64,000 bases of DNA, taken from Oscillatoria princeps RMCB-10. Its GTDB lineage: Bacteria; Cyanobacteriota; Cyanobacteriia; Cyanobacteriales; Oscillatoriaceae. The first letter of the stretch is position 1. Each line of letters opens with the position of its first letter. The stretch covers positions 1 through 64,000 of the forward strand of contig JAHHHT010000005.1 in assembly GCA_019359235.1 (NCBI GenBank), in the 5' to 3' direction. The translations under genes and the position numbers were made by a program. This document shows, in pieces, positions 24,739 to 46,647 of this stretch. The notes under the pieces were generated by a model. It searched no databases. It was not told where the DNA came from and saw nothing but the letters and a program-made list of their open reading frames with translations.

Positions 24739-25055
24739 AGCAACTCCTTGTTGATGAGACTGTTTTATTTATTGTTACACTTTATTAAGAAAAAGGTAAA
24801 GCGATGCCGCAGGAGGCGGGGTTAGAGGCCTTTGGGTTTGTGACATCTTCCCCACCGGCCTCTGGTTGGCCCACTGGGCGGGTGTCCTGACGCCCGAGGG
24901 GGTGCTGGAAACAGTCTCGTAAGGTACAAGCAATTCTGGAGCGTGGGATACTTCTTTATGAAAATCCTATTGCTAGGATACGGCTTTGCTTCAACTCAAC
25001 CGGCTGACCGCACGCTCAAAAACGGCAATCTCCCGCTAATTTACAGGAATTATAT
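24739..25055. other. Intergenic region upstream of urc1
   Basis: About 315 bp in the divergent space before the uracil-catabolism genes. It holds ATTGTTACACTTTATTAAG near 24770 and TCCTATTGCTAGGATA near 24966 (inverted TCCTA...TAGGA). No defined regulator site or riboswitch is recognised. Confidence 0.4.
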
Positions 25056-26318
25056 ATGCAAGACCACACCAAGAGTCCAAAGCCCAAGCATATTGTTTTA
25101 ACCTCGCACCCAACGCGATTCGGCCCGAAACCGATTGCGATTCACTGGGGGGAAAAAGACCCGCTCAAACGAGGCCCAGTCATCGCCACTGTGACGAATT
25201 CCGCTCACCGAAATGTGATTGGCACTCACTCAGGCTCTTATGCGGTTTATCGCGCCCTCGCCGTAGCCCGAGGCAAACTGCAATCCAATCACCGGCCAGA
25301 TCTTACCAATACCTCTCCCGCTGATCATATTGGCCCCCACCCCAGCTGGGCTGACCCCGATAAGATTGTCTCCCTCGATCCGTTTGGCGCTTTAGTGGGT
25401 GAAGTTTATGCGACCTTTTTCGAGGGTGGATACGATATTCGCCCCACTATTGCTGTCACGAAAGCTCACATTAATATGCCGGAACTTCAAACGGCAATTC
25501 AAGAGGGGCGCTTGCAGGTAGACGGCAAGATTGTCAAGGAGGGTGGGGATTTAGTTGTCACCAAAGCCGCCATTGAGCCGGTTTGGTATTTGCCCGGAAT
25601 AGCCAAGCGCTTCGAGGTAGAAGAAAGCGCTCTGCGCCGCACTCTGTTTGAGCAGACGGGGGGGATGTTTCCCGAACTGGTGACTCGCCCGGATTTGAAT
25701 GTGTTTTTGCCTCCGATTGGGGGCTTGACACTTTACATTCTTGGTGATATTGCAGCCATAACCGACCCCGATAAACCCCTGGCGGTTCGGGTGCACGACG
25801 AGTGCAACGGTTCGGATGTGTTTGGTTCCGATATTTGCACCTGCCGGCCTTATTTGGTGCACGGGATTGAGGTTTGCGTGGGGATGGCTCAAGAAGGCGG
25901 TGCCGGCGTAATTGCCTATTTTCGCAAGGAAGGCCGCGCTCTGGGTGAGGTGACGAAGTTTTTGGTGTATAATGCGCGGAAGCGTCAGGAAGGCGGCGAC
26001 CGGGCGGAGTCCTATTTTACCCGCACGGAATGCGTGGCTGGGGTTCAGGATATGCGGTTTCAAGAACTGATGCCGGATGTTCTGCACTGGCTGGGGATTT
26101 CCAAGATTGACCGGCTGGTTTCGATGAGCGATATGAAGTATAACGCTATCGTGCAGTCGGGGATTGAGGTGGTTCAGCGAGTCGCGATTCCAGAGGGGTT
26201 GATTCCGCCTGACGCGCAGGTGGAAATCGCTGCGAAGAAGGCGGCTGGTTACTACACTGAAGGGGAGGTGCCCAACCGAGTGGCGCTTGCCGAAATTCAG
26301 GGGCGCGGGTTAGAGTAA
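25056..26318 (+). CDS. urc1: Urc1: GTP cyclohydrolase II-like uracil catabolism protein
   Basis: A 420-aa relative of GTP cyclohydrolase II (RibA), but with the long N-terminal extension (TSHPTRFGPKPIAIHWGEKD, SAHRNVIGTHSGSYAVYRAL) typical of the URC1 branch rather than of riboflavin enzymes. The zinc/catalytic region reads VRVHDECNGSDVFGSDICTC, followed by FRKEGRALGEVTKFLVYNAR where RibA has GRGIGLxNK. In Lachancea kluyveri, URC1 is required for uracil degradation by the URC route. Here it is the first of four co-directional genes, with a DUF1688 (Urc4) gene and a uracil phosphoribosyltransferase next. That triad makes the URC assignment much safer than the family call alone. Confidence 0.88.
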   Translation: MQDHTKSPKPKHIVLTSHPTRFGPKPIAIHWGEKDPLKRGPVIATVTNSAHRNVIGTHSGSYAVYRALAVARGKLQSNHRPDLTNTSPADHIGPHPSWADPDKIVSLDPFGALVGEVYATFFEGGYDIRPTIAVTKAHINMPELQTAIQEGRLQVDGKIVKEGGDLVVTKAAIEPVWYLPGIAKRFEVEESALRRTLFEQTGGMFPELVTRPDLNVFLPPIGGLTLYILGDIAAITDPDKPLAVRVHDECNGSDVFGSDICTCRPYLVHGIEVCVGMAQEGGAGVIAYFRKEGRALGEVTKFLVYNARKRQEGGDRAESYFTRTECVAGVQDMRFQELMPDVLHWLGISKIDRLVSMSDMKYNAIVQSGIEVVQRVAIPEGLIPPDAQVEIAAKKAAGYYTEGEVPNRVALAEIQGRGLE

Positions 26319-26329
26319 ATAGGTGCTGA

Positions 26330-26425
26330 AGAAACCTGGTTTGTTAAAGGAACCAGGTTTCTTTAGCGGTTATAAGGGAGTTTTTTTATTAACCGCCAAG
26401 ACGCCAAGAGCGCCAAGGGAAGAGA
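26330..26425. repeat. Dispersed repeats between urc1 and urc4
   Basis: 26330-26363 is an AGAAACCTGGTTT...AACCAGGTTTCTT palindrome. 26391-26425 is AACCGCCAAGACGCCAAG followed by AGCGCCAAGG, a member of the CCAAGACGCCAAG family. Both families recur across the window. Confidence 0.7.
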
Positions 26426-26450
26426 GGAGGGAGGGGCTCACAATTACTGA

Positions 26451-27683
26451 ATGAAAGAAAATTACGAGGCTATTGCTTATTTGCGCTCGCCGGCAGCCAT
26501 TCGAGAGCGCTGCGAGCGAATCTTTACTCTAGCATGTGAGGATAAACTCCGCTATTTTCGCCCTCGTTTGAGCCGGTTGGAAGAAGTGGCGGGTTGGGTC
26601 ATTCAAGTGATTTACGGACAGTATCCGGATTTGAATATTCCCTTCCATTCGCGCTGGCGGCATTTCGAGGTTGGGGATGTGCCGCGCACAGCTCAGCTGG
26701 ATGGGGCGCTAGCCGGACTGAGTGCGGTTGAGCGGGCGCAAGTTAAGTTTGACTTGGCAATTGTCAGCGTGCTTCTGGATGCCGGTGCGGGCGCTGACTG
26801 GCAGTATTGCGAACAGGAATCAGGGCAGGTTTACCGGCGCTCGGAAGGGCTGGCTGTGGCGAGTTTCCGGATGTTTTGCAATGGCAGTTTTTCCAGCAAT
26901 ACTGAGCTGCCGGTGCGAGCGGATGCCGGCGGACTTCAGGGGTTAACTGAGTCAGCGCTGGCGCAGGGATTTCAAGTGAGTCAGTCAAATCCTCTGGTCG
27001 GTGTTGCCGGCAGGCTGGAATTGCTGCAGCGATTGGGGAAGGCGCTGCAACGCCAGCCCGAATTATTTGGGTATGATAACCCGCGTCCGGGCAATATGGT
27101 AAATTATCTTTTGGGGAAGGCGCGTGAGCGCCGGCTGGAAGCGAGTGCTGTGTTAAAGGCTGTTTTGGAGGGGCTGGGCGAAATATGGCCGGGAAGATTT
27201 GCGATTGCCGGTGTTAATCTGGGTGATGTGTGGCCTCATCCCGCTTTGCGAGGAGAGAACCCCGGCGCTGAGTATGTCCCGTTTCACAAACTTTCCCAGT
27301 GGCTGACTTACTCGCTGTTGGAACCACTTGAGGAACTCGGTTTGGAAATCACTGGGCTGGATGAGCTGACGGGTTTGCCGGAATATCGCAACGGCGGGCT
27401 GTGCCTGGATTTAGGATTGCTGGAAGTGAAAGAACCGGCAGTTTTGCAAGCGCGTCACTTGCCCGGATCTGAGATAATTGTGGAGTGGAGGGCGCTGACG
27501 GTGAGTTTGCTAGACCGGCTTGCTGAGGCAATTCGGAAACAGCTGGGCGCGAGCGCTGTTGAACTGCCGCTGGTTAAGATATTGCAAGGGGGAACCTGGA
27601 GTGCCGGTCGGAAAATTGCCGGTGAGTTAAGATATGGGGGCGCACCCCCGATTCAGATTGAGAGCGATGGGACGGTATTTTAG
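26451..27683 (+). CDS. urc4: Urc4: DUF1688 family uracil catabolism protein
   Basis: A 410-aa soluble protein of the DUF1688 family. Recognisable blocks are LRSPAAIRERCERIF at the N-terminus, IPFHSRWRHFEVG, PRPGNMVNYLLG and the C-terminal VEWRALTVSLLDRLA with PLVKILQGGTWSAGRKIA. URC4 of yeast is essential for uracil degradation, although its exact reaction is not settled. Its position 130 bp after urc1 and before a uracil phosphoribosyltransferase gene repeats the clustering known in URC-type bacteria and fungi. The length is normal and nothing is truncated. Confidence 0.88.
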   Translation: MKENYEAIAYLRSPAAIRERCERIFTLACEDKLRYFRPRLSRLEEVAGWVIQVIYGQYPDLNIPFHSRWRHFEVGDVPRTAQLDGALAGLSAVERAQVKFDLAIVSVLLDAGAGADWQYCEQESGQVYRRSEGLAVASFRMFCNGSFSSNTELPVRADAGGLQGLTESALAQGFQVSQSNPLVGVAGRLELLQRLGKALQRQPELFGYDNPRPGNMVNYLLGKARERRLEASAVLKAVLEGLGEIWPGRFAIAGVNLGDVWPHPALRGENPGAEYVPFHKLSQWLTYSLLEPLEELGLEITGLDELTGLPEYRNGGLCLDLGLLEVKEPAVLQARHLPGSEIIVEWRALTVSLLDRLAEAIRKQLGASAVELPLVKILQGGTWSAGRKIAGELRYGGAPPIQIESDGTVF

Positions 27684-27756
27684 AGGGGTTTGTGCCCCGA
27701 CACGAGAAAGGAGGCGGAGCCTCTGGGAGCATCCAATTTTTGCAAAGATTGTCACC

Positions 27757-27940
27757 CCCTCACCCCCCAAGGCACCCCTCTCCCATGAAGGGAGAGGGGG
27801 GAAAAATAAAGAATTCTCCCCTCTCCCCTTGTGGGAGAGGGGTTGGGGGTGAGGGGGATTACAAAAATGGGATGCTTCCGATCCTCTGTATCTGCGTAAT
27901 CTTCATTCTTGGCGTCCTTGGCGTCTTGGCGGTTCATTAA
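27757..27940. repeat. Pyrimidine-rich palindromes and CCAAGACGCCAAG repeat
   Basis: CACCCCCTCACCCCCCAAGG ... CCCCTCTCCCATGAAGGGAG and a second CCCCTCTCCCCTTGTGGGAG ... GGGTGAGGG palindrome lie at 27757-27860. A reversed CCAAGACGCCAAG element (CTTGGCGTCCTTGGCGTCTT) lies at 27909-27928. All belong to families repeated elsewhere. There is no gene between urc4 and upp. Confidence 0.65.
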
Positions 27941-27959
27941 TTAATTGGAAAAATTGTAA

Positions 27960-28595
27960 ATGACAGCCCAACTAACTGTAATTAGCCATCCTTTAATCCT
28001 GCACAAGCTGACGCTGATGCGGAAAGCGGACACCAGCACGGCGAAATTCCGCACGCTTTTGAAAGAAATAGGCATGCTGCTGGCTTACGAGGTAACGCGA
28101 GACTTGCCGGTCAAGTACGAGACGATTCAAACCCCAATGGCAGAGATGAGTGCTCCCGTGCTGGCGGCGGAAAAGAAGCTGGTAATTATCTCAATTATGC
28201 GGGCGGGACAGGGGATTTTGGACGGGATGCTGGAGCTGATTCCTTCGGCGCGAGTGGGGCATATTGGGCTGTACCGCGACCCCAACACACTGGTGGTGAT
28301 TGAGTATTATTTTAAGGTGCCTCAGGATATCGAGGAGCGGGATGTGTTGGTGGTCGATCCGATGATGGCCACCGGCAATTCTGCGGTGGCGGCGGTTCAG
28401 CGGCTGAAAGAGACAAACCCCCGCTCAATTAAGTTTGTCTGTTTGCTAGCTGCGCCGGAAGGAATTGAGCATTTTCACGAGCAGCACCCGGATGTGCCGG
28501 TGTACACGGCGGCGATTGACGAGCGTTTGGATGAACACGGTTACATTATTCCCGGACTTGGGGATGCCGGCGACCGGCTGTACGGGACGAAGTGA
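27960..28595 (+). CDS. upp: Uracil phosphoribosyltransferase
   Basis: A 211-aa enzyme that joins uracil to PRPP to give UMP. Family blocks are complete: the N-terminal [36 protein letters not shown], the PRPP loop [17 protein letters not shown] and the uracil-binding [17 protein letters not shown] at the C-terminus. In the URC pathway this step (URC6) activates uracil before ring opening, so the gene may serve catabolism here rather than, or besides, salvage. It follows urc4 on the same strand. Confidence 0.95.
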
Positions 28596-28649
28596 TACCA
28601 ATTTTGGATGCAAGGATTTTGGATTTTGGTGCAAAATTTAATGCAATTA

Positions 28650-29501
28650 ATGCAAAGTTTAAAAGGCAAAGTGGCTGCTGTCACCGGCGCGAGTCGCGGC
28701 GCGGGGCGCGGTATCGCCCTGGCGCTGGGTGAAGCGGGAGCAACGGTTTACGTGACGGGACGCAGTGTCAGGGGCGGGCCAACAACAGAGAGCCGGCCAG
28801 AAACCATCGACGAGACGGCGGAGGGCGTCACGGCGCGGGGGGGCGCAGGCATCCCGGTGCGCTGCGACCACACGGTAGATGCAGAGGTGGAAGCCCTGTT
28901 TGAGCGCGTGAAAGCGGAGTGCGGTCGCCTGGACATTCTGGTCAACAATGCCTGGGGCGGCTACGAACGCTACAATGGGGAGCGCTTTGAGGATGGGACA
29001 GCGTTTGCCGCCCCGTTTTGGGAGCAATCGCTGCAGCGCTGGGAGGGGATGTTCGCCGCCGGCGTGCGGGCGCATCTGGTGGCTAGCCGCTTCGCCGTCC
29101 CGCTGATGCTGCCCCACCGGCAGGGGCTAATCGTCAGCACCACGGCGTGGGATCGGGACAAATATCTCGGCAATTTGTTCTACGATTTGGCAAAGAACGC
29201 AGTCAACCGCATGGCGTATGGGATGGCGCGGGATCTGCGCGATCACGGCATCGCCGCCGTAGCCCTCGCTCCCGGATTCATGCGCACCGAAAGGGTGCTG
29301 GCGGCGCATGAGGAGCAAGGTTTCGACCTCAGCATTACGGAGTCGCCGGAGTACATTGGGCGGGCGATCGCCGCTCTCGCCGCCGATCCAAATGTGATGC
29401 AAAAGTCGGGAAGGGTGCTGGCGGTGGGCGATCTGGCGCGAGAGTATGGCTTTGCGGATATCGATGGCAGGCAATTGCCGGCGTTCAAAATCGAGGACTG
29501 A
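28650..29501 (+). CDS. DHRS1-like short-chain dehydrogenase
   Basis: A 283-aa SDR. The cofactor loop is VTGASRGAGRGIALALGEAG, the NAG-type motif is ILVNNAWGG, and the active-site region has STTAWDRD with YDLAKNAV (Tyr/Lys) downstream. The ending GRVLAVGDLAREYGFADIDG is characteristic of the DHRS1 branch. It reduces a carbonyl with NAD(P)H. In uracil catabolism an SDR (YdfG in the Rut route) reduces malonate semialdehyde, so such a role is possible here but unproven. Upstream in-frame codons derive from a TTTTGGATTTTGGAT repeat, so MQSLKGKVAAVTG is preferred; MQLMQSLKG (28641) is equally possible. Confidence 0.85.
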   Translation: MQSLKGKVAAVTGASRGAGRGIALALGEAGATVYVTGRSVRGGPTTESRPETIDETAEGVTARGGAGIPVRCDHTVDAEVEALFERVKAECGRLDILVNNAWGGYERYNGERFEDGTAFAAPFWEQSLQRWEGMFAAGVRAHLVASRFAVPLMLPHRQGLIVSTTAWDRDKYLGNLFYDLAKNAVNRMAYGMARDLRDHGIAAVALAPGFMRTERVLAAHEEQGFDLSITESPEYIGRAIAALAADPNVMQKSGRVLAVGDLAREYGFADIDGRQLPAFKIED

Positions 29502-29789
29502 TGCCTATGCAAGGATTTTGGATTTTGGATGCAAGGATTTTGGATGTGCCGGTGTTGCCAGAGGAGTAGATTGAGCTTAATAATGAACCGCTCCTGAGCC
29601 AAGGACGCCAAGAAGGAAGAAGAAAGAGGAAGAGGGAGATAAAAAGTCTTGCTTTTTTCCGGGCGATTTCTAATCGCCAGGAGCCCAAAGGACAAAGGGA
29701 CAACTTATTCGTCGATCCAGCTCAAGCTGGGAACGCCTGTTTGTCGGCTCCGCCGGCTTCTCTCCAACCAATTAAGCGATATTCCGCGC
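29502..29789. other. Intergenic region between convergent operons
   Basis: It contains two TGCAAGGATTTTGGATT copies (29507 and 29529), a degenerate CCAAGGACGCCAAGAAGG repeat (29599-29616) and a CTGGGAACGCC palindrome half (29728). There is no gene and no clear terminator. Confidence 0.45.
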
Positions 29790-30722
29790 TCAATTGTCGC
29801 GGCTTTCTTTAATATAAGCAATGCCAAGGGCAGCTGGGGGGGTGGATTTGCCGGCTAATCCCACGAGAGCTAGGAGCGCGACGCAATAGGGCAGCATGAC
29901 TAATAACTGATAGGGGATGTTGAGATTGAAGGCTTGAATGCGCAGCTGCAGGGCTTCTGTGGCTCCGAATAGCAAGCTGGCAAGGGCGGCACCGGCAGGG
30001 TGCCACCGGCCAAAAATGAGCGCCGCCAGTGCGATGAAGCCTTTGCCGGCGCTCATTTCTTCTGTAAAGAATCTAACGTGAACTAAGGCTAAATATGCGC
30101 CTCCCAAACCGGAAAGACAGCCGCTGAGGGTGACGCTGAGATAGCGCACAGCGGCGACTGGCACTCCAGCGGTGTCAGCAGCGCGGGGGTACTCGCCAAC
30201 GGCTCTGAGGGACAAACCGATGCCGGTGCGAAATAGAATGTAGGTGCTGAGGGGAACCAGCAGAAAGAGACAGTAAACAAGCGGATCTTGATTGAAGAGT
30301 AGGGCACCGATAATAGGGATATCTTTGAGTGCGGGAATGCCGGCGGTCGGAATGGCAGGCAGTTGCTGGGTGCTGCCACTGCTAAACACGAGTCTTGCCA
30401 AGAAGGAAGTTAAGCCGGCAGATGCCAGATTGAGAGCCAATCCTGAGACTAATTGGTCAACTCGCAGCGTCACGCAGAGATAGGCGTGGAGCAATCCAAC
30501 TATTCCCCCCGCAGCGAGGGCGGCTAGAATGCCCAGCCAGACACTGCCGGTGTAAAATGCTGCAGCCGCGCTGGCAAAAGCACCGGCTAGCATCATTCCT
30601 TCCAGCCCAATATTGAGGACGCCGGATCGTTCTGAGAAAAGCCCGCCCAAGGCGGCAAAGGCTAGGGGCACAGAGAGGCGCAGGCTGGCTGCGAGATAAT
30701 CGGTGAAAAAGGTGATATCCAT
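29790..30722 (-). CDS. Nucleoside-type ABC transporter permease 2
   Basis: A 310-aa polytopic permease of the branched-chain/BmpA-associated class. It opens with ASLRLSVPLAFAALGGLFSE and the family motif RSGVLNIGLEGMMLAGAF. FRAVGEYPRAAD is matched here as LRAVGEYPRAADTAGV, the cytoplasmic loop contacting the ATPase. About eight to nine hydrophobic segments are visible. It is the last gene of a four-gene minus-strand operon (BmpA, ATPase, two permeases) and lies eight bases after the first permease. The C-terminal tail AYIKESRDN runs into repeat-rich DNA. Confidence 0.9.
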   Translation of the reverse strand: MDITFFTDYLAASLRLSVPLAFAALGGLFSERSGVLNIGLEGMMLAGAFASAAAAFYTGSVWLGILAALAAGGIVGLLHAYLCVTLRVDQLVSGLALNLASAGLTSFLARLVFSSGSTQQLPAIPTAGIPALKDIPIIGALLFNQDPLVYCLFLLVPLSTYILFRTGIGLSLRAVGEYPRAADTAGVPVAAVRYLSVTLSGCLSGLGGAYLALVHVRFFTEEMSAGKGFIALAALIFGRWHPAGAALASLLFGATEALQLRIQAFNLNIPYQLLVMLPYCVALLALVGLAGKSTPPAALGIAYIKESRDN

Positions 30723-30730
30723 TTTAGATT

Positions 30731-31792
30731 TTACCCTTTAGCTTCTAGATTGGCTGTTGCCTGCTGTCTCTTGCCTTCGAGTGCTAAACTAATAGCAATG
30801 AAGAGAACAGCCAGCCCCTGAATGGCATAGACCACAGTCACCGGCACGCCGGCACTGCGCTGCATGACATTCGCGCCGCTGCGGAGGGCACCAAAGAAGA
30901 GGGAAGTGAGGACAGCACCTGCAATATTGCCGCGACTGAGAAAAGCAATCCCCAGCGCATCAAAGCCGTAACCGCCAGAGAATTTCTCGAACAGCCTGTA
31001 TTTTAAACCCATCACCTCACCGGCACCCGCCAGCCCAGCCAACCCGCCCGCCAGCGCCATCACTAACATTATAGTGCGCTCCACAGAAATGCCGGCATAT
31101 CGCGCCGCAACTGGATTAAGTCCCACCGCTGCGATTTGATAGCCCAGAGGCGTTTGCTGCAGTATCGCCCACAAAATCGCCGCCGCCACTAGGGCAATTA
31201 AAATGCCGGCGTGAGCGAGACTGTTAGGCAGAATAACCGGCAGCTTTGCCGATTCAGAAATCAGCGGCGTGTAGGGGCTGGGCGCTCCTTTTTCCATCAT
31301 TGGCCCATCCACGAGATAGCCCACAAAGTTGAGGGCGATGTAATTCATCAGCAGAGTAGAAATCACCTCATTGACACCTCGCACCGCTTTGAGATATCCT
31401 GGAATTAACCCCCATATACCTCCCAGAACAAACCCGCCCAGCAGCGCCAGCGGCACATGAATAAATGCCGGCAAACCCTGCAGGTACAGTCCCACCAGCG
31501 CACTCCCCAAACCGCCCATATAAATCTGCCCTTCGCCGCCGATATTGAGCTGACTCGCTCGCAAAGCAACCAGCACCCCCAGCGCAGCTAATAGCAGCGG
31601 AGCCATCTTAGTCAGCGTATTGCCAAATCCGAAATAAGTAGCCAGCGATTCTTGAAACAGGGCGACATAAGCCGTCACCGGATTCGCCCCAGCCAGCACA
31701 ATCAATCCAGCCCCAACTAGCAGCGCAGCCGCAATCGCCACCACCGGCGATAAAAATGGCACAACATTTGGTACAATCCGAGCAATTTTCAC
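30731..31792 (-). CDS. Nucleoside-type ABC transporter permease 1
   Basis: A permease of about 353 aa with the paired motif ASQLNIGGEGQIYMGGLGSA, the loop QIAAVGLNPVAARYAGI and roughly ten hydrophobic segments. With the second permease it should form the membrane channel of a BmpA-type nucleoside importer. I prefer the GTG at 31792 (VKIARIVPN, with AAGGGA just before it). An alternative TTG at 31825 adds MSQDAKDAKGR, which is translated from a CCAAGACGCCAAG dispersed repeat. It begins close to the ATPase stop, and the space between is made of repeats. Confidence 0.88.
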   Translation of the reverse strand: MKIARIVPNVVPFLSPVVAIAAALLVGAGLIVLAGANPVTAYVALFQESLATYFGFGNTLTKMAPLLLAALGVLVALRASQLNIGGEGQIYMGGLGSALVGLYLQGLPAFIHVPLALLGGFVLGGIWGLIPGYLKAVRGVNEVISTLLMNYIALNFVGYLVDGPMMEKGAPSPYTPLISESAKLPVILPNSLAHAGILIALVAAAILWAILQQTPLGYQIAAVGLNPVAARYAGISVERTIMLVMALAGGLAGLAGAGEVMGLKYRLFEKFSGGYGFDALGIAFLSRGNIAGAVLTSLFFGALRSGANVMQRSAGVPVTVVYAIQGLAVLFIAISLALEGKRQQATANLEAKG

Positions 31793-31794
31793 TC

Positions 31795-31858
31795 TTCCCT
31801 TGGCGTCCTTGGCGTCTTGGCTCAAGAAACCCGGTTTCTTTAAGAAACCGGGTTTCTC
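31795..31858. repeat. AGAAACCCGGTTTCT doublet plus CCAAGACGCCAAG unit
   Basis: AAGAAACCCGGTTTCTT (31824-31840) and AAGAAACCGGGTTTCT (31842-31857) are two palindromes in tandem, and a CTTGGCGTCCTTGGCGTCTT unit abuts at 31798. The element encodes the last residues of the ATPase gene (RNPVS and stop), and possibly the first codons of permease 1 if the upstream start is used. Confidence 0.8.
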
Positions 31859-33369
31859 TTATTTCTCTGAGAAACTTTCCCACCCCCCATCAGCAACCCC
31901 ACCCGCTCCACACTAGCACCCTCCGCCTCCAAAATATCCACAAACTTTCCCTCATACATTACAGCAATGCGGTCACTCACCGCCATAACCTCCTCCAACT
32001 CCGCTGAAATATACAGAATAGCCGCCCCGCGCTCCCGTTCCGCCAGCAACCGCTGCTGCACCGATGCAGTCGCCCCGACATCTAAACCCCGCGTCGGCTG
32101 CATTGCCACAATCAGCACCGGCTCGCCGTCGAGTTCCCGCGCCAGCACCACTTTTTGCTGATTCCCGCCCGACAGCTGGCTCACCCTCACTTGTGGGTGA
32201 GACGCCCGAATGTCATATTGTTGCATAGCGCGAGCGGCGCGGTCAAGAATGGCTAACTCTTGCAAGAAAAAGTGCCGGCAAAATGGCAAGCGCCTGAAAG
32301 CTTTGAGAATCAGGTTTTTGGCGATACTGAAGCCCAACACCAGACCCATTTTTTGCCGGTCTTCTGGAATGTAACCCACTTTCAGCTGCTTCAAGTGCTG
32401 GGGGGACAAATGGGTGACATCCTCGCCGCACAGGTGAATTTTGCCGGCTGTGACTGGGCGCAAGCCGGCGATCGCATCCGCCAATTCTCGCTGACCGCTG
32501 CCATCCACACCGGCAATTCCTAATATCTCACCGGCACGCAGTTGAAACGACACATCCCGAACGGCTGCGAGATGCCGGTCATCTCTGACCGTTAAGTCCT
32601 GAACTTCCAGCACCACAGCCCCCTCTTTTCGCGGGGGTTTATTCAGCTGCAAAGAAACCTCACGCCCAACCATTAATTGCGCTAAATTTTGCGAGGTTGT
32701 CTCTTGAGTTGCTGTCGTTGCTACCACCTGACCCCGCCGCAGCACTGTCACCGTGTCGCAGAGGCTGATCACTTCTTCTAGCTTGTGGCTGATGAAGATA
32801 ATTGTGTGTTCATTTGCTGCTAGCCGGCGCAGGATATGGAAGAAGGAATCGACTTCCTTAGGTGCCAGCACGGCTGTGGGCTCGTCAAGAATCAGCAGCT
32901 TGGCTTGGCGGTAAAGAACCTTGAGTATTTCGACTCGCTGCTGGGCTCCCACCGGCAAATCCCCCACCCTGGCGCTGGGGTCAACTTCCAAGCCGTAAGA
33001 CTGGGAGAGGGCTGCGATTTCCTGCTGTTTTGCTGGCAGGTTCAGACGCCAGCTTGAGCCGGTTCCCAGGATAATATTTTCTGTTACTGTCAGTTGCGGA
33101 ACCAGCATGAAGTGCTGGTGAATCATGCCGATACCGAGTTCAATGGCTGCTTTGGGGGAAGGGATCTGCGCCGGCACGTCTTGCAGGTAAATCTGGCCGG
33201 CATCGGGGTGGTAAAGGCCAGAAAGGATGTTCATTAAAGTGGTCTTGCCTGCTCCGTTTTCTCCCAGGAGGGCGTGAATCGAGCCGGTGGCGACACTCAG
33301 GTTGATGCTGTCGTTGGCGACAAAGGTGCCAAAGCGTTTGGTAATTCCCTCTAGGCGCAGGTATGACAT
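31840..33369 (-). CDS. Nucleoside-type ABC transporter ATPase
   Basis: A 509-aa protein with two fused nucleotide-binding domains. Domain 1 has Walker A LLGENGAGKTTLMN, Q-loop MIHQHFML and Walker B LLILDEPTAVL. Its signature is the degenerate VGAQQRVEIL rather than LSGGQ. Domain 2 starts near 255 with a divergent Walker A (IAGVDGSGQREL), a proper signature LSGGNQQKVVLAREL and Walker B VLIVAMQPTRGLD (Asp/Glu replaced). This asymmetry is normal for NupO/YufO-type ATPases. It powers uptake with the BmpA lipoprotein encoded upstream and the two permeases downstream. Its final residues come from a dispersed palindrome. Confidence 0.92.
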   Translation of the reverse strand: MSYLRLEGITKRFGTFVANDSINLSVATGSIHALLGENGAGKTTLMNILSGLYHPDAGQIYLQDVPAQIPSPKAAIELGIGMIHQHFMLVPQLTVTENIILGTGSSWRLNLPAKQQEIAALSQSYGLEVDPSARVGDLPVGAQQRVEILKVLYRQAKLLILDEPTAVLAPKEVDSFFHILRRLAANEHTIIFISHKLEEVISLCDTVTVLRRGQVVATTATQETTSQNLAQLMVGREVSLQLNKPPRKEGAVVLEVQDLTVRDDRHLAAVRDVSFQLRAGEILGIAGVDGSGQRELADAIAGLRPVTAGKIHLCGEDVTHLSPQHLKQLKVGYIPEDRQKMGLVLGFSIAKNLILKAFRRLPFCRHFFLQELAILDRAARAMQQYDIRASHPQVRVSQLSGGNQQKVVLARELDGEPVLIVAMQPTRGLDVGATASVQQRLLAERERGAAILYISAELEEVMAVSDRIAVMYEGKFVDILEAEGASVERVGLLMGGGKVSQRNKRNPVS

Positions 33370-33410
33370 CTTTGGATTTTGGATTTGGGATTTTGGATTT
33401 TTAAATAGGG

Positions 33411-33445
33411 GTAGGGTGCGTTCCCTCTTAGGGAACGCACCCTAC
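33411..33445. repeat. GTAGGGTGCGTTCCCT hairpin
   Basis: Perfect 16-bp inverted repeat with the 3-base loop CTT, in the gap between bmpA and the ATPase gene. It is the same family as 14388-14424 and 51241-51271. Directly before it is a TTTGGATTTTGGATTTGGGA string that also recurs at 14345 and 28612. The hairpin could attenuate read-through from bmpA. Confidence 0.75.
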
Positions 33446-33558
33446 GAGTTACTAGGAGTTACACGCTGTCGCCCGTGCCCAAGATGTGTATAAACGGTAG
33501 GGCTGTAGGGGCGGGCCACTCACGGAGACCGCCCTGGGAACGAAGAAACGAGGAAGTT

Positions 33559-34608
33559 TTAAACCTTCTTAACGCACCAAGTATCTTTGCCGGCATCTTT
33601 GCACGGTTCAAAAACAATCTTCTTGGAAAGGATAGCCTGTTTGGCATCGAGTGCCTTTTTCTGTACAGCTTCCGGCACCATTGCGCCAAAGCGTCCCAAA
33701 GTCACGATTTCCGGTTTTTCCAGCCCGATGATATATTTTTCCCCCTTCAGCTGACCCTTTGAAGCCAATTCTGCCAGATAAGCGATGGCTAAGTCAATCC
33801 GCTTGACGGCACTGGTTAAAACCGCCTTGGGAGCGGCATCCAGCTGGTCTGTGGTGTTGCCAAAGGCATAGGCTCCCTTTTCTGCCGCCGTTTGCAGCAC
33901 CGCCGCCGAGGCAATATCCAGCCACTGGTAAACCACATCCGCACCGGAGGAAATTAAAGCCACTGCGGCTTCTTTTGCCTTGGCGACATCATTCCAGTCT
34001 CCCGTATAGGTGGAGCTGATTTTGATATCGGGTTTGACGGACTTGGCTCCCAATTCAAAGCCGCGCAACTCTTGCTGGGTCGCTTCAAAAGACTGGCCGC
34101 CGAGATAAGCCATGTGGTTGGATTTGGTCAGGGAAGCGCCTATTATACCGCAAAGGTAGCTCAGGTGCATGTTATTGATGCGGAGGGAGGCAATATTCTT
34201 GCCGGTGGCGGCACCATTAACGACGACAAAAAAAGTGTTGGGAAACTGCGCGGCGACCTGCCCGACCGCCGCATCAAATTGTCCTCCGTGAGCGAAAACC
34301 AGGCTGTAGCCCCGGCGGGCGAAGTCCGAAAGCGCCTCTACTTGATCGGGTTGCGCTACCTTTTCTACATAGGCAATTTCCGCGCCCAGCTGTTTTTTGA
34401 CTTGGGTTATGCCCTCGAATCCCGTCTGGTTCCAAGCTTGGTCGGTAATGCTTCCCGGGATGACGATTGCGGCTTTAAAATTGGGGGTGCCGGTGGAAGT
34501 GGTTTGTGTGGGTGCTGGACTGCTGCCGCAAGCTTTCAGCAGCACGCTGGTGCCAAGGGCTGCTGAACCGTACCAGAGAAATTGACGCCGACTGTATTTT
34601 CCCGCCAT
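33559..34608 (-). CDS. BmpA-family substrate-binding lipoprotein
   Basis: A 349-aa periplasmic-binding protein of the BMP (PnrA-like) family, which captures nucleosides. The N-terminus has a twin-arginine-like SRRQFLWYGSAALG and lipobox LKAC with Cys27, then a Ser/Thr/Pro linker. The mature fold begins KAAIVIPGSITDQAWNQTGF, with AHGGQFD, NGAATGKNIASLR and GADVVYQWLD as family blocks. It is the first gene of the transporter operon. The ligand is inferred to be a nucleoside or nucleobase from the family and from the adjacent uracil-catabolism genes. Confidence 0.92.
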   Translation of the reverse strand: MAGKYSRRQFLWYGSAALGTSVLLKACGSSPAPTQTTSTGTPNFKAAIVIPGSITDQAWNQTGFEGITQVKKQLGAEIAYVEKVAQPDQVEALSDFARRGYSLVFAHGGQFDAAVGQVAAQFPNTFFVVVNGAATGKNIASLRINNMHLSYLCGIIGASLTKSNHMAYLGGQSFEATQQELRGFELGAKSVKPDIKISSTYTGDWNDVAKAKEAAVALISSGADVVYQWLDIASAAVLQTAAEKGAYAFGNTTDQLDAAPKAVLTSAVKRIDLAIAYLAELASKGQLKGEKYIIGLEKPEIVTLGRFGAMVPEAVQKKALDAKQAILSKKIVFEPCKDAGKDTWCVKKV

Positions 34609-34686
34609 GCGAACTCCTAGAACATTACCGATTTAGAAACAGTCCCCAAATGGAGAAACTTAGTACAGCTGGGTTTTTACTCTTTT

Positions 34687-34760
34687 TCACGCCTCCCCCT
34701 CTCCCCTTGTGGGAGAGGGGGCTGGGGGGGATCGGGGCCCCCTCTGGGGATGGGGGGAAG
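34687..34760. repeat. CCCCCTCTCCCC palindrome
   Basis: CTCCCCCTCTCCCCTTGTGG and GAGAGGGGGCTGGGGGGG form a pyrimidine/purine palindrome of the family also at 27757-27860 and 46869-46970. It occupies the divergent space between bmpA and the ureidoglycolate-lyase-like gene. Confidence 0.6.
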
Positions 34761-34832
34761 AGGGGCAAGCCGCTGGATCGCTCCTACTAATACAATAATT
34801 TAGTACCATAAAACTGTCCTTTGAGCTACTTT

Positions 34833-35324
34833 ATGCCCCCAGCCCAAGCGGTCAGACAACTGCTGGCCCAGCCGATAGCGCCAGAAGGCTTCCAGCGGTA
34901 CGGTCAGGTCATCTATCCCAGTCAAGACGGCAAGCGCTACGATTCCGAGGACGCCCAGCTGGAGCTCAGCAAGGGCATTCCCCGATTTTACATTATGCGC
35001 CTCACCGACAGAGGCCGAAGATTTCGCCACATTACTCGCCACGTCAAGTGCACGCAGTGTTTGGGATCTCTGGAAGGGAAGGAGTGGTTTATTGCGGTCG
35101 CCCCACCGTCCGAGTCGCCGGTGCCGGTGCTGGAGGAAATCTCGGCTTTTCGGATTCCGGGCAATTGCTTTATCAAGTTGGAAGTTGGCACCTGGCATGC
35201 CGGTCCCTATTTCGACCACGACTTTGTAGATTTCTATAACCTGGAGCTATCGGACACGAATATCACTGACCACGAAACCTATAATTTCCGGAAGGAGCTG
35301 GATTTGGAATTTGAAATTGTTTAG
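34833..35324 (+). CDS. Ureidoglycolate lyase (AllA) family protein
   Basis: A 163-aa cupin-like protein. The N-terminal APEGFQRYGQVIYPS, the conserved HVKCTQCLGSLEGKEWFIAV region, a central PSESPVP...ISAFRIPGNCFIKL and GTWHAGPYF followed by DHDFVDFYNLELSDTN match the ureidoglycolate lyase family, which splits ureidoglycolate to urea and glyoxylate in purine breakdown. The family also contains members of unknown substrate. It is divergent from the nucleoside transporter and next to the URC genes, so a role in releasing nitrogen from nucleobases is plausible. ATG at 34833 is preferred over the TTG at 34821. Confidence 0.78.
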   Translation: MPPAQAVRQLLAQPIAPEGFQRYGQVIYPSQDGKRYDSEDAQLELSKGIPRFYIMRLTDRGRRFRHITRHVKCTQCLGSLEGKEWFIAVAPPSESPVPVLEEISAFRIPGNCFIKLEVGTWHAGPYFDHDFVDFYNLELSDTNITDHETYNFRKELDLEFEIV

Positions 35325-36804: not shown

Positions 36805-37662
36805 TTAGCTCGAAAAATACTGGCTGTAAAGTGCCTGGATTTGTTGCTTGAAGAACTCGCGCACGTTTGCCGGTGACACGACCTCACAGTTTTCTGCATA
36901 GGCTAACACTTCGCGCCGCAACCAGAATATATTCGATTCCATTCGCCTGACTTGCTTTACTGGAGGGTCGCTGTCCAGCCAGTTCACCTCCAGATCCTCA
37001 GGCTTGCGTTCGTAACTAAAAGCCAGTCCGCCTTGCAGGTGCAGGACAACTTCGAGCCGGTCTAGGTCAGGAAGCCAAGCTTTGTCTGCAGAAACTACAG
37101 CTGCTTCTGTAATTCTGTCCAGTCGCAAGCTCCAGTTGTGAGCCAACTCCAGCACTTCCTGATTGCTGCGAGATTCTTCACACCGGCACTCCAGGTACTG
37201 TCGCTTCTCTCTAAAAGCGATCTTGGCGTGCAGCACAGTATAGTTCCACTCGCGGTCGGCAGCATCGCGATAGGAGAGCCGAAAAGGCTGCTGCTGGAGA
37301 ATCCGGCGGTTGATTTCCAAAGCCCAAGCCGGCGGCGGATCGCCCAGGAAGCGCTCGACTTCCGCTCTAAAAGGTATCGATAATTCGCTGCGCTCTATTA
37401 ATAGTTGAGCGATCTCTCTGGCTATGTCTACCTGACCGGTATCCACTAAGGCTTTAAGTGCCTGGTTTAAGGCTGCAATGCGGGTTTGCGACCAGTCGTG
37501 GTTGGGGGCAACTAACAGCTTGTGCCTAGCAATGGCTTCTACCAGCTTGGAGATATTGGGGCGATCGCCCCACGTCATGCCCAGCTCAAGGGCGATCGCT
37601 TCCAGCTGGGCTTTGTCCCGCTCAGAAATCGACAGGGTGATTGACTGGCCTTTGCGACTCAT
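36805..37662 (-). CDS. WYL-domain regulator of the type I-D CRISPR locus
   Basis: A 285-aa transcription factor. The N-terminus (1-50, ITLSISERDKAQLEAIALEL then SKLVEAIARHKL) resembles a ribbon-helix-helix DNA-binding domain. The C-terminal half holds a WYL-type ligand-sensing domain (PFRLSYRDAADREWNYTVLH; LAHNWSLRLDRI) and a trailing WCX-like part (VVLHLQGGLAFSYERK). In Synechocystis 6803 the WYL protein Sll7009 controls the type I-D CRISPR locus, and this gene is likewise divergent from cas3. The 112-bp gap contains two ACGGACACT copies, likely its operators. Confidence 0.85.
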   Translation of the reverse strand: MSRKGQSITLSISERDKAQLEAIALELGMTWGDRPNISKLVEAIARHKLLVAPNHDWSQTRIAALNQALKALVDTGQVDIAREIAQLLIERSELSIPFRAEVERFLGDPPPAWALEINRRILQQQPFRLSYRDAADREWNYTVLHAKIAFREKRQYLECRCEESRSNQEVLELAHNWSLRLDRITEAAVVSADKAWLPDLDRLEVVLHLQGGLAFSYERKPEDLEVNWLDSDPPVKQVRRMESNIFWLRREVLAYAENCEVVSPANVREFFKQQIQALYSQYFSS

Positions 37663-37668
37663 ATTTGT

Positions 37669-37749
37669 ACGGACACTTTATAGTGTAAGTTTGTTGTCAA
37701 TTTCTATTTTGCCTGCCACAATCGACTGTAGCAACAGTTTACGGACACT
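37669..37749. promoter_or_regulatory. Candidate operator of the WYL regulator and cas promoter
   Basis: ACGGACACT occurs at 37669-37677 and again at 37741-37749. The first copy extends into the inverted repeat ACACT-TTAT-AGTGT (37673-37686). One copy lies seven bases upstream of the regulator's ATG and the other 26 bases before the cas3 ATG. Occupancy of both could control both directions. The nine-base motif is exact in both. Confidence 0.55.
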
Positions 37750-37774
37750 AGATCAGCATCTATCCCGCTCGCCC

Positions 37775-39930
37775 ATGAAAATTTCCCTGCTCCCCCTCCA
37801 CTCGCAGCTGAACCCTGGCCCTGGCCACTGTCCCCTGGGCTGCAGCTCCTACGGAGCCGGTACGCTAACGCTGAGCTGCCTCGCGGACGAGAAGGCTCCT
37901 CAGCTCAAGCAGGACCCAACCCACAGATGTCCGCTCTCCTCGCACCAGGCTGAGACTTGCGCTCAGATTGACCTGGGCGGTGCGGATATCGTGTTTAACA
38001 CTTCCGCCACGGGGGACGGGAAATCTCTGGCCGGTTATTTGCCGGCGCTGCTCAACCCTGACTTCCGCATTATGGGGCTGTATCCGACGATTGAATTGGT
38101 GGAAGACCAGACCCAACAGCAGCATCGCTACCACTCACTATTTGGTTTAGAGGCAAAAGAGCGAGTTGACTGCCTGTTTGGGGCTGAGCTGAGCCGGCGG
38201 GTGAGCGCTGCCAAAAGCAATAAGTTTCAGGAGTTGCTCTTTGCTATCCAAACTAAGCCGGTTATCCTGACGAATCCAGATATTTTTCACCTCATTTGCC
38301 ATTTTAAGTACCGAGATCCGGCTTACGGCAATGACTTGCTCCCAGTTACGCTTGCCGGCTGGCCTGATTTGTGGGTTTTTGATGAATTTCATATCTTTGG
38401 CCCCATCAGGAAGCGGCGGCTCTTAACAGCTTGACCCTCATCCGCCGCACCCAACAGCAGCCGAAGCGGTTTCTCTTTACTTCCGCCACTCCCAAGCCAG
38501 ACTTTATCGAGCAATTGCGGCAGGCGGATTACCAAGTTGCAGAGGTCAAAGGGGTTTATGCGAGTGCGCCGGCACCTGGCTTTCGCCCTATCTTGCAGCC
38601 GGTGGAATTGGAGTTTGTCGATTTAAAGGATACAGACTCTCTAACTTGGCTAACTTCCCAGGCGCATGCGATTCGAGAGATTATTTTGGCCGAAACTCAA
38701 GGCAGGGGGTTAATCATTCTCAATTCTGTGGCGTTAGCCGGTCGGGCGGTTCGCGAACTGCAAGCCTTGCTGCCAGAGGTAATGGTTAGAGAAGTGAGCG
38801 GGCGAATTGACCGGCAGGAACGCGCTCTCACCCAAGCCGCGCTCAAAAATGCCCCGCAGCCGGTGTTAGTTGTCGGTACTTCAGCGGTGGATGTGGGGGT
38901 GGATTTCCGGATTCACTTGCTGATTTTTGAGGGGAGCGATTCAGCAACCGTCGTGCAGCGTTTGGGCCGGCTGGGCCGGCATCCTGGGTTTTCTGCTTAC
39001 AGAGCTTTTATCCTGCTGCCGGCTCGCACTCCTTGGATTGGCTCTCGGTTGCGGGAAAAGTTAGAACCAGGGCAGGTTTGCGACCGCAACCAGTTGCAAG
39101 AAGCGATTGTTCATGCCTTTGAACCACCTCAAAACTTTCAGGAATATTTCAACTGCTGGGGCGCTTTGCAGGCGCAGGGAATGTTCTGGCAGATGAGCGA
39201 GGGCAATGCGGCGGTGATGCAGCCGGTGCGCGAGCGCATGGCGAGTGACCTGCAAAGAGTTTACGGCAAGAAATTAGAGTCAGCCCAGAAACGCTGGTTT
39301 GCTTTGGGCAAGGATACCAGAGAGCCGGTGGCTACTAGAAATGCTATCCACGAGCAACTCCTGAGGTTTCGCGGCGACTCCAGCCTGCAGGCGGCTGTTT
39401 GGGATGGAAAGCGCTTCTATCTTTATGACTTGCTGCGACTGCTGCCTTATGCCAGAGTTGAAATCATCGAGCGCGAGAGGTTTTTGAGTGAAGCCACTGC
39501 TGCTGGACATGCGGAAGAAGCTTTTCCTGAGCGGCACACCCACGTCTACTTGCAGTTGCGGGAATGGGTGGATGAGCGGTTTGAACTTACCCTTAACTGC
39601 AACCGCAACAGTGATGAATTGGAGCCTTGCCAGCTGTCTCTCATCAGCCGCCTCAGCATCGCAGGACATCCGCAGGCTGAGGTGAAAACTTGCTTGCGAC
39701 AGAAGAAACTGCTGGCATTTTTGGTGCCGGTGAGTCGCGACCGCCTCAACAGCCACTGGGATGTGAGCCGCACGCTCCATCTCAGCCCTCTGTTTGGGCT
39801 GTACCGGCTGACAGACGGAGCGGGCTTTGCTTATGCCTGCGCTTTCAACCAAGATGCGCTGCTGCTGGAGGCGATGAAGTGGAAGCTGAAAAAGTTCTGC
39901 CAGAGCCAACCTAAATCCCTAATTTTTTAA
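37775..39930 (+). pseudogene. cas3: cas3 helicase of type I-D, interrupted by a frameshift
   Basis: Cas3 of type I-D unwinds target DNA and lacks the HD nuclease, which resides on Cas10d. The N-terminal part (MKISLLPLHSQLNPGPGHCP) has Walker A NTSATGDGKSLAGYLPALL and the DEFH box WVFDEFHIFG. It then shifts frame and ends at RKRRLLTA. The remaining frame carries LFTSATPK (motif III), GTSAVDVGVDF and QRLGRLGRHPG (motif VI). Adding one C to the run at 38401-38404 restores GPHQEAAALNSLTLIRR and a protein of 718 aa. The lesion sits in a homopolymer, so it may be a sequencing error or a recent mutation. The stop overlaps the cas10d start (TAATG). Confidence 0.9.
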
Positions 39931-42872: not shown

Positions 42873-42886
42873 AGCCGTGAAAGCGC

Positions 42887-42919
42887 AGAAACTGGGTTTC
42901 TGGAAGAAACCCGGTTTCT
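42887..42919. repeat. AGAAACTGGGTTTCT doublet inside the cas operon
   Basis: AGAAACTGGGTTTCT and AGAAACCCGGTTTCT lie in tandem, separated by three bases, in the 95-bp gap between cas10d and csc2. It is a dispersed-family member inserted within an operon. Confidence 0.75.
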
Positions 42920-42967
42920 CACCCCTGAGAAACGAGTTAAACACTGACAATCTGATGGAGAATCAAA

Positions 42968-43978
42968 ATGAGCGTTCTTGAAACCTTGAAGTCGGAATTT
43001 CATACTGCCTTTCCCCGCTTGGCGTCTGGCAAGTATGTTCACTTTATCATGGTGCGCCACAGCCAGTCGTTCCCGGTATTCCAGACTGACGGGGTGCTGA
43101 ACACGGTGCCAACTCAAGCCGGTGTGCGGGAGCACAAGCGGATTAACCGGCTCGTCATGTTCAAGCGCAAGCAGACAACGCCTGAACGTCTGGCGGGGCG
43201 GGAACTGCTGCGCTCCTTAAGTCTCACCAGCGCTGACAAAAATGCCGGGAACTTTTGCGAGTACAGTGGGGACAAATCTTGCGGTCAGTGCCCTGACTGT
43301 GTTATCTACGGGTTTGCAGTTGGAGAGAAGGGTTCCGAACGTTCCAAAGTTTACTCCGATTCGGCATTTTCGCTCAGCGCCTATGAAACCTCTCACCGCA
43401 GCTTTACTTTTAACGCTCCGTTTGAGGGGGGGACGATGAGCGAAGCCGGCACAATGCGCTCGTCGATTAACGAGCAAGACCACGTTTTGCCTGAAGTGAC
43501 GTTTCCCACGGTTGAAACTCTGCGCGATCCAACCTGTGAGGGGTTCCTCTATGTGATGGGGAACTTGCTGCGGGCGCGGCGCTACGGGGCGCAAGAAACC
43601 CGCACGGGCACGATGGAAAACCACATTCTCGGCATTGTCTTTTGCGATGGTTAAATTTTCAGCAATCTCAAGTTTACCCAGGCTGTTTATGATGCGGTGG
43701 AGGGGGATATGACTAAGCCTCTGAGTGAGATTCGGACTCTGGCGAGTCAGGTGGCGGAAAGCTTGCTCAGTGAGGAGCCGGTGCGCAAAAGCCAAGTGAT
43801 CGTCGGGCTGCAGCTGGCGGAGTTGCGGGGTGAGGTGAGGGCGATTTACCAGGATGAGGCGCGTTTGCGGGAAACTATTGGCGCTCTCTACGAGCAAACC
43901 CAGAAATATGCCGGCGATTTCGGGGCGAATGCCGGTGGGGGTAAGAAAAGCACAGGTAAACGGAAGTCAGCCTCATAG
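42968..43978 (+). pseudogene. csc2: csc2 (Cas7d) with an in-frame stop codon
   Basis: Csc2 is the Cas7 backbone subunit of Cascade-d that binds the crRNA spacer. The first 228 codons carry KYVHFIMVRHSQSFPVFQTD, a zinc-binding cluster (Cys97, 105, 108, 111 in CEYSGDKSCGQCPDC) and ARRYGAQETRTGTMENHILG. After IVFCDG a TAA (43652-43654) interrupts. The same frame continues IFSNLKFTQAVYDAVEGDMT and ARLRETIGALYEQTQKYAGD to a lysine-rich end, exactly the expected C-terminus. The family usually has GEIFSN here, so TAA probably replaced GAA. Full length would be 336 aa. A truncated product lacks the C-terminal third. Confidence 0.88.
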
Positions 43979-44003
43979 CCACCGGCTGGGGAATTAATTC
44001 CCT

Positions 44004-44035
44004 TTGTAGGGACGCGACATGTCGCGTCTCTACAA
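44004..44035. repeat. TTGTAGGGACGCGAC palindrome
   Basis: A 32-bp near-perfect palindrome (TTGTAGGGACGCGACATGTC / GCGTCTCTACAA) lies between csc2 and csc1, with one mismatch per arm. It is related to 35868-35899. It could form a hairpin in the cas mRNA. Confidence 0.7.
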
Positions 44036-44097
44036 CCGGGTGACGCACCCGGCTCGTGCCGGCGACTGATGAGAATAGCAATTTCAGGAGATGAATT

Positions 44098-44823
44098 ATG
44101 CCTGTCTACAAATGTACTTTAACCTTGCACGACAATGTATTTTACGCTACGCGGGAGATGGGGGTTCTCTATGAAACTGAGAAATATTTGCACAACTGGG
44201 CGCTCAGTTTTGCTCTGTTCAATGTTCAGTACATCCCGCAACCATACCGGCTGCAGGGACAAGCGGCGCAAACACCGGGATATTTAGATGCCGGTTGCGA
44301 GCAAAATCTGCTGCACCTGAATCAGGCTGGTATCTATGTGTTTCCAGCCGTGCCGCTTTCTTGGTCTTATCAAGTGAATACGTTTAAAGCGGCTCAGGTT
44401 CCCTATTACGGCAAATCCAAGCAGTTTGGAGAGGAAGGGGCGCGGCGCAACTACCCCATTAATTTTGGGCGGGCTAAAGAACTGGCGGTTGGCAGTCAGT
44501 ACGAAACCTATATCGTTGCTGCTGAGGGGGTAAAAATTCCCCGCTGGATTCGGTTGGGGAAATGGGCGGCAAAGACTTATGTTGAGGCTACCCGGATTTC
44601 GCAGGTTGAAGAGAAATCGGGGAAATATACTTGCGCCCATCCCCTGAATCCGCTAGACTTGCCGAGTTCATGCCGGTTGGTATTGTATAATCGGATTGTT
44701 ATGCCGCCTGTGAGTCTGGTCAGCCAAGCTCAACTGATAGGCGACTTTTGGCAATTGCCAAACCGGATTTGTTTGCCGCGAGGGTTGTATTATGGAGCCG
44801 GCTATGTCCCTACAGTATCCTAG
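44098..44823 (+). CDS. csc1: Csc1 (Cas5d of type I-D)
   Basis: A 241-aa RAMP protein that caps the 5' handle of the crRNA in Cascade-d. Family features are the N-terminal strand YKCTLTLHDNVFYATREMGV, a central YGKSKQFGEEGARRNYPINF and the C-terminal PNRICLPRGLYYGAGY. AGGAG five bases upstream of AATT-ATG is a strong site. Its 3' end overlaps the cas6 start. No lesion is visible. Confidence 0.92.
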   Translation: MPVYKCTLTLHDNVFYATREMGVLYETEKYLHNWALSFALFNVQYIPQPYRLQGQAAQTPGYLDAGCEQNLLHLNQAGIYVFPAVPLSWSYQVNTFKAAQVPYYGKSKQFGEEGARRNYPINFGRAKELAVGSQYETYIVAAEGVKIPRWIRLGKWAAKTYVEATRISQVEEKSGKYTCAHPLNPLDLPSSCRLVLYNRIVMPPVSLVSQAQLIGDFWQLPNRICLPRGLYYGAGYVPTVS

Positions 44824-45613: not shown

Positions 45614-45865
45614 TGATCTGCTATGCTGGAGAGTGGGAAATACCACCCCCCTCTTGGCTGGCGGGGAGAAGGAGTGGGAAGCGAATTTGTCAGACTTATG
45701 GGTCGGAAAAGCCTAGACAAGAGGAGGCGATTGCATTATGATGGAGAGGAAGCGATGAATTTGGCAGGCCGTAGCGGAGCCGAAAACCCCGGAGGGTTGC
45801 CAAAACGCCCGGAACCTTGAAAATTGAATAGTTTTGGCCTATGGCCACGCTGGCAGCGGGGGGGA
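45614..45865 (+). promoter_or_regulatory. CRISPR leader region
   Basis: About 250 bp between cas6 and the first repeat remnant without a credible gene. The GGAACCTTGAAAATTGAATAG string near 45808-45829 is typical of cyanobacterial CRISPR leaders just upstream of arrays ending GATTGAAAC. It should contain the array promoter. Confidence 0.55.
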
Positions 45866-46619: not shown

Positions 46620-46647
46620 AAACCACCTATCCGACAGCTCCCGACAC

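Follow-up and report, generated by a model that had tools for sequence, protein, structure and literature searches.

Here, we report a uracil-catabolism (URC) island in the cyanobacterium Oscillatoria princeps RMCB-10, located at positions 25056 to 35324 of a stretch of 64,000 nucleotides (contig JAHHHT010000005.1, positions 1 to 64,000 of the forward strand; this whole stretch is the window below). The core of the island is the known URC machinery, i.e., urc1 (GTP-cyclohydrolase-II-like), urc4 (DUF1688), and upp (uracil phosphoribosyltransferase, UPRT), and the cluster probably breaks down uracil to release nitrogen. We consider it likely that the locus as a whole is a URC-type pyrimidine-catabolic locus working by the following steps. 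The BMP-type transporter would import nucleosides and Upp would make uridine monophosphate (UMP); Urc1, by analogy with GTP cyclohydrolase II, would cut UMP at two C-N bonds by hydrolysis, leaving ribosylurea-5'-phosphate and malonate semialdehyde; Urc4 would split ribosylurea-5'-phosphate into urea and ribose-5-phosphate. Urease would then free the ammonia, and a methylmalonate-semialdehyde dehydrogenase (MMSDH) would convert malonate semialdehyde to acetyl-CoA. The AllA-fold protein would be an accessory, probably acting on a ureido compound.

Gene order and distribution of the island

Four genes, urc1, urc4, upp, and a short-chain dehydrogenase/reductase (SDR) gene, are consecutive on the plus strand and are opposed by a four-gene BMP-type ATP-binding cassette (ABC) transporter on the minus strand, after which an AllA-like gene follows. 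Every named gene is an open reading frame recognized by family models, as listed here together with a candidate promoter site; the gene row, the facing transporter, and the trailing AllA-like gene of the original prediction are thus borne out.

24938..24979, plus strand: candidate NtcA-type site upstream of urc1 (GTAN8TAC with one mismatch, followed at 22 bases by a TAN3T box)
25056..26318, plus strand: urc1, GTP-cyclohydrolase-II-like with a GTP_CH_N domain (NF005536, 763.3 bits, cut-off 403; PF12471, E 7.9e-89)
26451..27683, plus strand: urc4, DUF1688 (PF07958, 528 bits, full profile)
27960..28595, plus strand: upp, uracil phosphoribosyltransferase (TIGR01091, 274.3 bits, cut-off 208.35)
28608..29501, plus strand: SDR oxidoreductase (PF00106), 12 bp after upp
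29790..30722, minus strand: bmpD, ABC permease (BPD_transp_2, PF02653, 138 bits)
30731..31825, minus strand: bmpC, ABC permease (BPD_transp_2, PF02653, 144.7 bits)
31840..33369, minus strand: bmpB, two-domain ABC ATPase (PF00005, two stretches)
33559..34608, minus strand: bmpA, PnrA/Bmp-type substrate-binding protein (PF02608, 204 bits)
34821..35324, plus strand: AllA-fold cupin, ureidoglycolate-lyase-like, probable accessory (PF04115, 34.8 bits, cut-off 23)

No tRNA or Rfam family reached threshold in the window. The original prediction spoke of a complete URC island with its own nucleoside importer. What stands is the URC core and, linked to it, a BMP-type importer whose nucleoside ligand is putative; "complete" is slightly too strong because urease and the candidate semialdehyde dehydrogenase sit elsewhere in the genome.

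Of 386 genomes of the phylum, 33 carry urc4; a second set, of 40 close relatives and overlapping the first, has it in 14. A scan of named genomes with urc4 gave at least 80 loci (60 cyanobacterial, 20 from other phyla), around which flanks of up to 8.6 kb, often shorter, were examined; matches below 30% identity were dropped, as were SDR, regulator, and bmpB matches below 50%. Please note that this survey and a second one of 38 loci overlap partly (e.g., L045 and L087) and are not independent, and that all named-locus counts here refer to the matches listed. urc1 lies near urc4 in 72 of the 80 named loci and upp in 64, which argues that the gene order is not due to chance. A bmpD homologue stands opposite the urc genes in 13/60 cyanobacterial loci and in 1/20 of the others, the latter being a Rhizobiaceae locus (L144, 42% identity), and the AllA-like gene occurs in 11/60 and 0/20, respectively. 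In the overlapping survey it is present in 6/38 loci from five families, our own genus included. Other cyanobacteria (e.g., L094, L107, L111, L112, L114, and L118) show the whole arrangement, transporter and AllA-like gene included, and the nearest named relatives are cyanobacterial. The neighborhood survey that had been proposed thus finds the core order kept and the transporter and AllA-like gene recurrent in some cyanobacteria.

One point of this survey weighs against a working pathway throughout: the urc4 match carries internal stops in 3 of the 33 URC genomes (G039, G334, and G354). The stop-bearing loci are L030 and L063 (G039), L064 (G354), and L066 (G334), and their sequences suggest pathway decay in some strains.

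Urc1 and the predicted Qng1-like fold of Urc4

Urc1 exceeds the NF005536 cut-off by a wide margin and scores only 51.9 and 59.9 bits with the RibA models (cut-offs 205.85 and 148). These profile scores, rather than a tree, keep the urc1 homologue apart from RibA, the grouping that had been named as fatal to the original prediction, and on them we ruled out Urc1 as a riboflavin RibA. Two solved structures named GTP cyclohydrolase II (PDB 7ej3 and 7eev), for which no paper was found in the literature searched, match Urc1 residues 11 to 419 (E 6e-183). The match of 2bz0, which we take to be E. coli RibA, is confined to residues 230 to 386 (E 4e-10). Urc1 has a domain in common with RibA and keeps three Cys aligned with those of 2bz0, presumably with a metal role; unlike RibA, it carries an extra GTP_CH_N domain. 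GTP cyclohydrolase II hydrolyzes two C-N bonds of GTP, with release of formate, and by this analogy we infer that Urc1 would open the UMP ring through a two-bond hydrolysis.

DUF1688 has no assigned reaction in Pfam, and some URC steps are uncharacterized according to PMC7530994. The predicted model of Urc4 has the same fold as Qng1, a queuosine-5'-monophosphate hydrolase (DUF2419), over most of the protein, a confident fold match at about 20% identity, and the window Urc4 holds a Lys/acid pair (Lys280/Glu311) resembling that of the Qng1 nucleotide hydrolase. We take K199 and D231 to be the catalytic residues of Qng1, based on PDB entry titles. The Lys and Glu are invariant in our Urc4 alignment, in which 14 of the 20 non-cyanobacterial loci, those giving a full urc4 reading frame, are represented and the other six left out. 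Aligned with Qng1, Urc4 appears to keep the Lys and to have Glu in place of the catalytic Asp. The shape of the predicted model suggests a way of freeing urea, and we infer that Urc4 may be a ribosylurea-5'-phosphate N-ribosidase of the Qng1 fold.

Several results weigh against this assignment. The Asp-to-Glu correspondence comes from a weak hhalign profile-profile alignment (probability 21.8, E 0.001), a sequence-profile search of the PDB with Urc4 returned no Qng1 and only two chance-level matches, and the window Urc4 has no match to PF10343 at E<=10. That family is matched at E<=10 by 14 of 24 Urc4 homologues (best E 2e-4), and Urc4 and Qng1 belong to different Pfam families. Two further Qng1 residues, D298 and W302, are covered by PMC11592518. 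No paper holding both DUF1688 and DUF2419 was found in the literature searched, in which synonyms such as Urc4 and Qng1 were not crossed. The Qng1-like reading makes an unsettled URC step testable: a fold match to a nucleotide N-ribosidase together with an invariant Lys/Glu pair points to a specific reaction, substrate, and mutants that can be assayed.

Proposed fate of the products and NtcA-type promoters

Urease alpha is encoded in the same genome, outside the island, and urease occurs in 32 of 33 URC genomes, only URC genomes being counted. MMSDH above cut-off was found in 15/33 URC genomes, our own included, versus 0/33 controls (Fisher p 8e-6), the controls being non-URC genomes of the same order and matches being taken at E<=1e-90; within that order the counts are 9/25 versus 0/33 (p 2e-4). 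In L140, L141, and L152, urc4 has a homologous dehydrogenase gene no more than 5 kb away, and the protein of L141 fits MMSDH best (429 bits, just below the cut-off of 448.5). The presence of MMSDH in URC genomes would fit a Urc1 whose C3 product is malonate semialdehyde. On the other side of the balance, urease may simply be common; MMSDH above cut-off is missing from 18/33 URC genomes; a weaker relative, under the cut-off, is present in four of the controls; and the MMSDH statistics ignore ancestry.

Two other genes were noticed near urc1. A cytosine deaminase gene, consistent with pyrimidine catabolism, is present at L048:13412-14797 (692 bits, cut-off 403) and also in L047, L056, L063, L073, and L075. 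In Microcoleus and Tychonema, urc1 and urc4 have a gene for a guanylate/adenylate cyclase-domain protein between them (L075:5648-6730, L073, L074, and L080; family assigned from L075).

The upstream regions of urc1 would fit nitrogen control. NtcA, the cyanobacterial nitrogen regulator, binds GTAN8TAC with a -10 box about 22 bases downstream. This palindrome occurs in the 400 bases before the urc1 start region in 31 of 71 distinct loci, versus 7.8 expected from shuffles that preserve base composition only, and the palindrome followed by a -10 box at the distance typical of NtcA sites in 17/71, versus 0.7 expected; a first pass with other limits had given 30/79. The sites lie mostly about 150 to 195 bases ahead of the anchor motif. 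Before the other genes, the palindrome with -10 box was found in 1/65 (upp), 0/51 (AllA-like), 1/16 (bmpA), and 0/86 (urc4) upstream regions, and the palindrome alone in 1/65, 2/51, 2/16, and 18/86 (8.5 expected for urc4), respectively. Among the genes tested, the excess with the -10 box is at urc1 only. It should be said against this evidence that the 71 upstream regions come from related species and that the window itself has no exact site in the 400 bases before urc1. A match like its one-mismatch candidate turns up in 14% of shuffles and is weak evidence by itself; in the same-genus locus L070, urc1 is preceded by an identical 14-base site with a -10 box. Taken with the urease count, the urc1 promoters make plausible the earlier suggestion that pyrimidines serve as a nitrogen source, and, to judge from the broader survey, several lineages of cyanobacteria might use them so under nitrogen control.

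The same observations bear on another reading of the trio, in which Urc4 would be a Qng1-fold N-ribosidase of a different nucleotide, e.g., a modified or damaged pyrimidine nucleotide, and the three genes would serve salvage or damage clearance instead of nitrogen supply. Qng1 itself is a salvage enzyme, and the fold does not reveal the substrate. We nevertheless hold this reading to be improbable: genetic work in yeast puts Urc4 between ribosylurea and urea, and the NtcA-type promoters before urc1, the enrichment of MMSDH, and the near-constant urease all argue for nitrogen recovery from uracil.

Accessory genes and relation to known systems

Like the PnrA/BMP nucleoside ABC transporters, the transporter of the island is made of a Bmp substrate-binding protein, two BPD_transp_2 permeases, and an ATPase. 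BmpA has 14 solved relatives, including the PnrA-type 2fqw, with what we take to be a purine ligand, and an atrazine-binding protein. Two results count against its place in a uracil route. The closest NCBIfam models, all below cut-off, are of a putative vitamin B6 transporter, and the close family of bmpA (E<=1e-60) is found in 16/386 genomes, half of them without urc4. For these reasons the nucleoside ligand remains putative, and the distribution rules the transporter out as an obligate URC part. Separately, urc1 is preceded by an ABC transporter of the NMT1/THI5 type at L102:2887-5625 and in loci of the same cluster, the substrate-binding gene belonging to a cluster from 10 cyanobacterial loci; this transporter is possibly a second pyrimidine importer.

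The AllA-like protein has a PF04115 domain and the cupin-type fold of AllA ureidoglycolate lyase (E. coli; P. putida, 2bdr), with which it shares His74, Gln79, Trp125, His126, and Asp150. It differs from E. coli AllA in overall sequence (24% identity) and in the residues ahead of the shared Trp-His, and it scores 33.2 bits with the NCBIfam equivalog (cut-off 230). The gene occurs in 29 of the 33 URC genomes, yet 73 of the 353 genomes that lack urc4 have it as well, and a genus-level test gave 22/24 versus 31/119 (genera counted by hand from the urc4 and AllA-like listings). A URC-only enzyme is therefore ruled out. The idea that it supplies a ureido-cleaving step survives in a weaker form, given its frequency in URC genomes and the five families in which it neighbors urc genes: it is probably an accessory of cyanobacterial nucleobase breakdown, acting on a ureido compound. 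A gene for a DoxX-like membrane protein was seen just before the AllA-like gene at L107:16127-16573 and in eight other loci, several times between the AllA-like gene and bmpA.

Alternatively, the AllA-like protein could belong to purine (allantoin) breakdown as an ordinary ureidoglycolate lyase, with purine nucleosides as the cargo of the BMP transporter; the URC genes and a purine module would then merely be adjacent. We regard this as possible, though not the probable case. The shared fold and the PnrA-type relative of BmpA, with its presumed purine ligand, are in its favor, as are eight genomes that hold the AllA-like gene and the transporter together without urc4. Further, from 40 AllA-like stretches chosen from 102 genomes, 38 gave the reading frame, and 4 of these 38 loci, unlinked, lie near MocA/XdhC-type molybdenum-hydroxylase maturation genes (families tested on L185, below cut-offs; assigned in L189, L198, and L199 through clustering with L185). 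OHCU decarboxylase, a marker of purine breakdown, also favors it, being found in 17/36 URC genomes tested, 12 of these being AllA-like holders, versus 0/14 AllA-only genomes (p 0.002). Against it, this decarboxylase is absent from every AllA-only genome tested and also from our own. A source of ureidoglycolate was not found: allantoicase occurs in 12/386 genomes, none an AllA-like holder, and none of the 50 genomes (the same 36 URC and 14 AllA-only ones) has ureidoglycine aminohydrolase above cut-off; neither was found with the AllA-like gene, a difference from AllA itself. Allantoicase, ureidoglycine aminohydrolase, and OHCU decarboxylase were not found in our own genome, other steps of the ureidoglycolate route not being searched; allantoinase, uricase, and allantoate amidohydrolase were left out of the purine-route search. 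The AllA-like gene also directly adjoins upp (L204 and L211), urc1 (L210), and a cytosine deaminase gene (L197), and the residues ahead of its Trp-His differ from those of E. coli AllA, both of which count against the purine reading.

A more specific chemistry for the AllA-fold protein in cyanobacteria can be drawn, which we find rather unlikely as it stands. The protein would split a C6 carbinolamide (3-hydroxy-3-ureidopropionate) left by Urc1 into malonate semialdehyde and ribosylurea-5'-phosphate, after which Urc4, as a new Qng1-like N-ribosidase, would cut. On this doubtful scheme the substrate would be one carbon longer than ureidoglycolate, and the AllA-fold protein might supply a step that is absent from the yeast URC pathway or there left to chance. 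If it were true, pyrimidine breakdown would have co-opted the AllA family from purine breakdown.

The original prediction had also offered the SDR for semialdehyde reduction, and this part finds no support. A close homologue is found in only 1 of the 38 surveyed loci (same-genus L070, 92%), apart from which L036 has one of 24% at a distance of 5.3 kb. Among the 80 named loci, 4 give matches, all of only 22-24%. In L072, of the same genus, upp and bmpD are separated by 275 bp, which leaves no room for an SDR gene; on the genus-restricted distribution and this gap we rejected the SDR as a pathway step. Its best NCBIfam subfamily, NF006159, gives 311 bits, under the cut-off of 364. The SDR is probably a local insertion outside the conserved module. 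A version with fixed steps in this island, in which semialdehyde reduction falls to the SDR and cleavage of the ureido intermediate to the AllA-like enzyme, could appeal to the tight spacing and common orientation of upp and the SDR gene and to the frequency of the AllA-like gene in URC genomes. We consider it very improbable given the SDR distribution and score just described, MMSDH as a better candidate for the C3 product, and the absence of the AllA-like gene from 4/33 URC genomes and from the flanks of all 20 non-cyanobacterial loci.

Beyond the island, the window holds a type I-D CRISPR-Cas locus (37478-46839): Cas3' in two overlapping reading frames, Cas10d/Csc3, Csc2 (matching 3-211 of 282 profile positions), Csc1, and a Cas6-like protein just below cut-off, followed by a repeat array. 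At the array end (46481-46839), a 76-base stretch occurs twice and is accompanied by a run of 21-base tandem units.

As far as we know, the Qng1-like Urc4, the AllA-like and BMP partners, the MMSDH association, and the NtcA-type promoters are new relative to known descriptions; no paper on cyanobacterial URC uracil use together with ureidoglycolate was found in the literature searched. MMSDH and the AllA-fold cupin are further enzymes of interest for the pathway. The island shares with Lachancea kluyveri URC1/URC4/URC6 and with the urg1-urg2-urg3 trio of fission yeast the GTP-cyclohydrolase-II-like, DUF1688, and UPRT families. Yeast uses urea amidolyase (URC3 and URC5) where these cyanobacteria have urease, and its C3 product is 3-hydroxypropionate, whereas MMSDH here suggests oxidation; a transporter and an AllA-like gene have been added.

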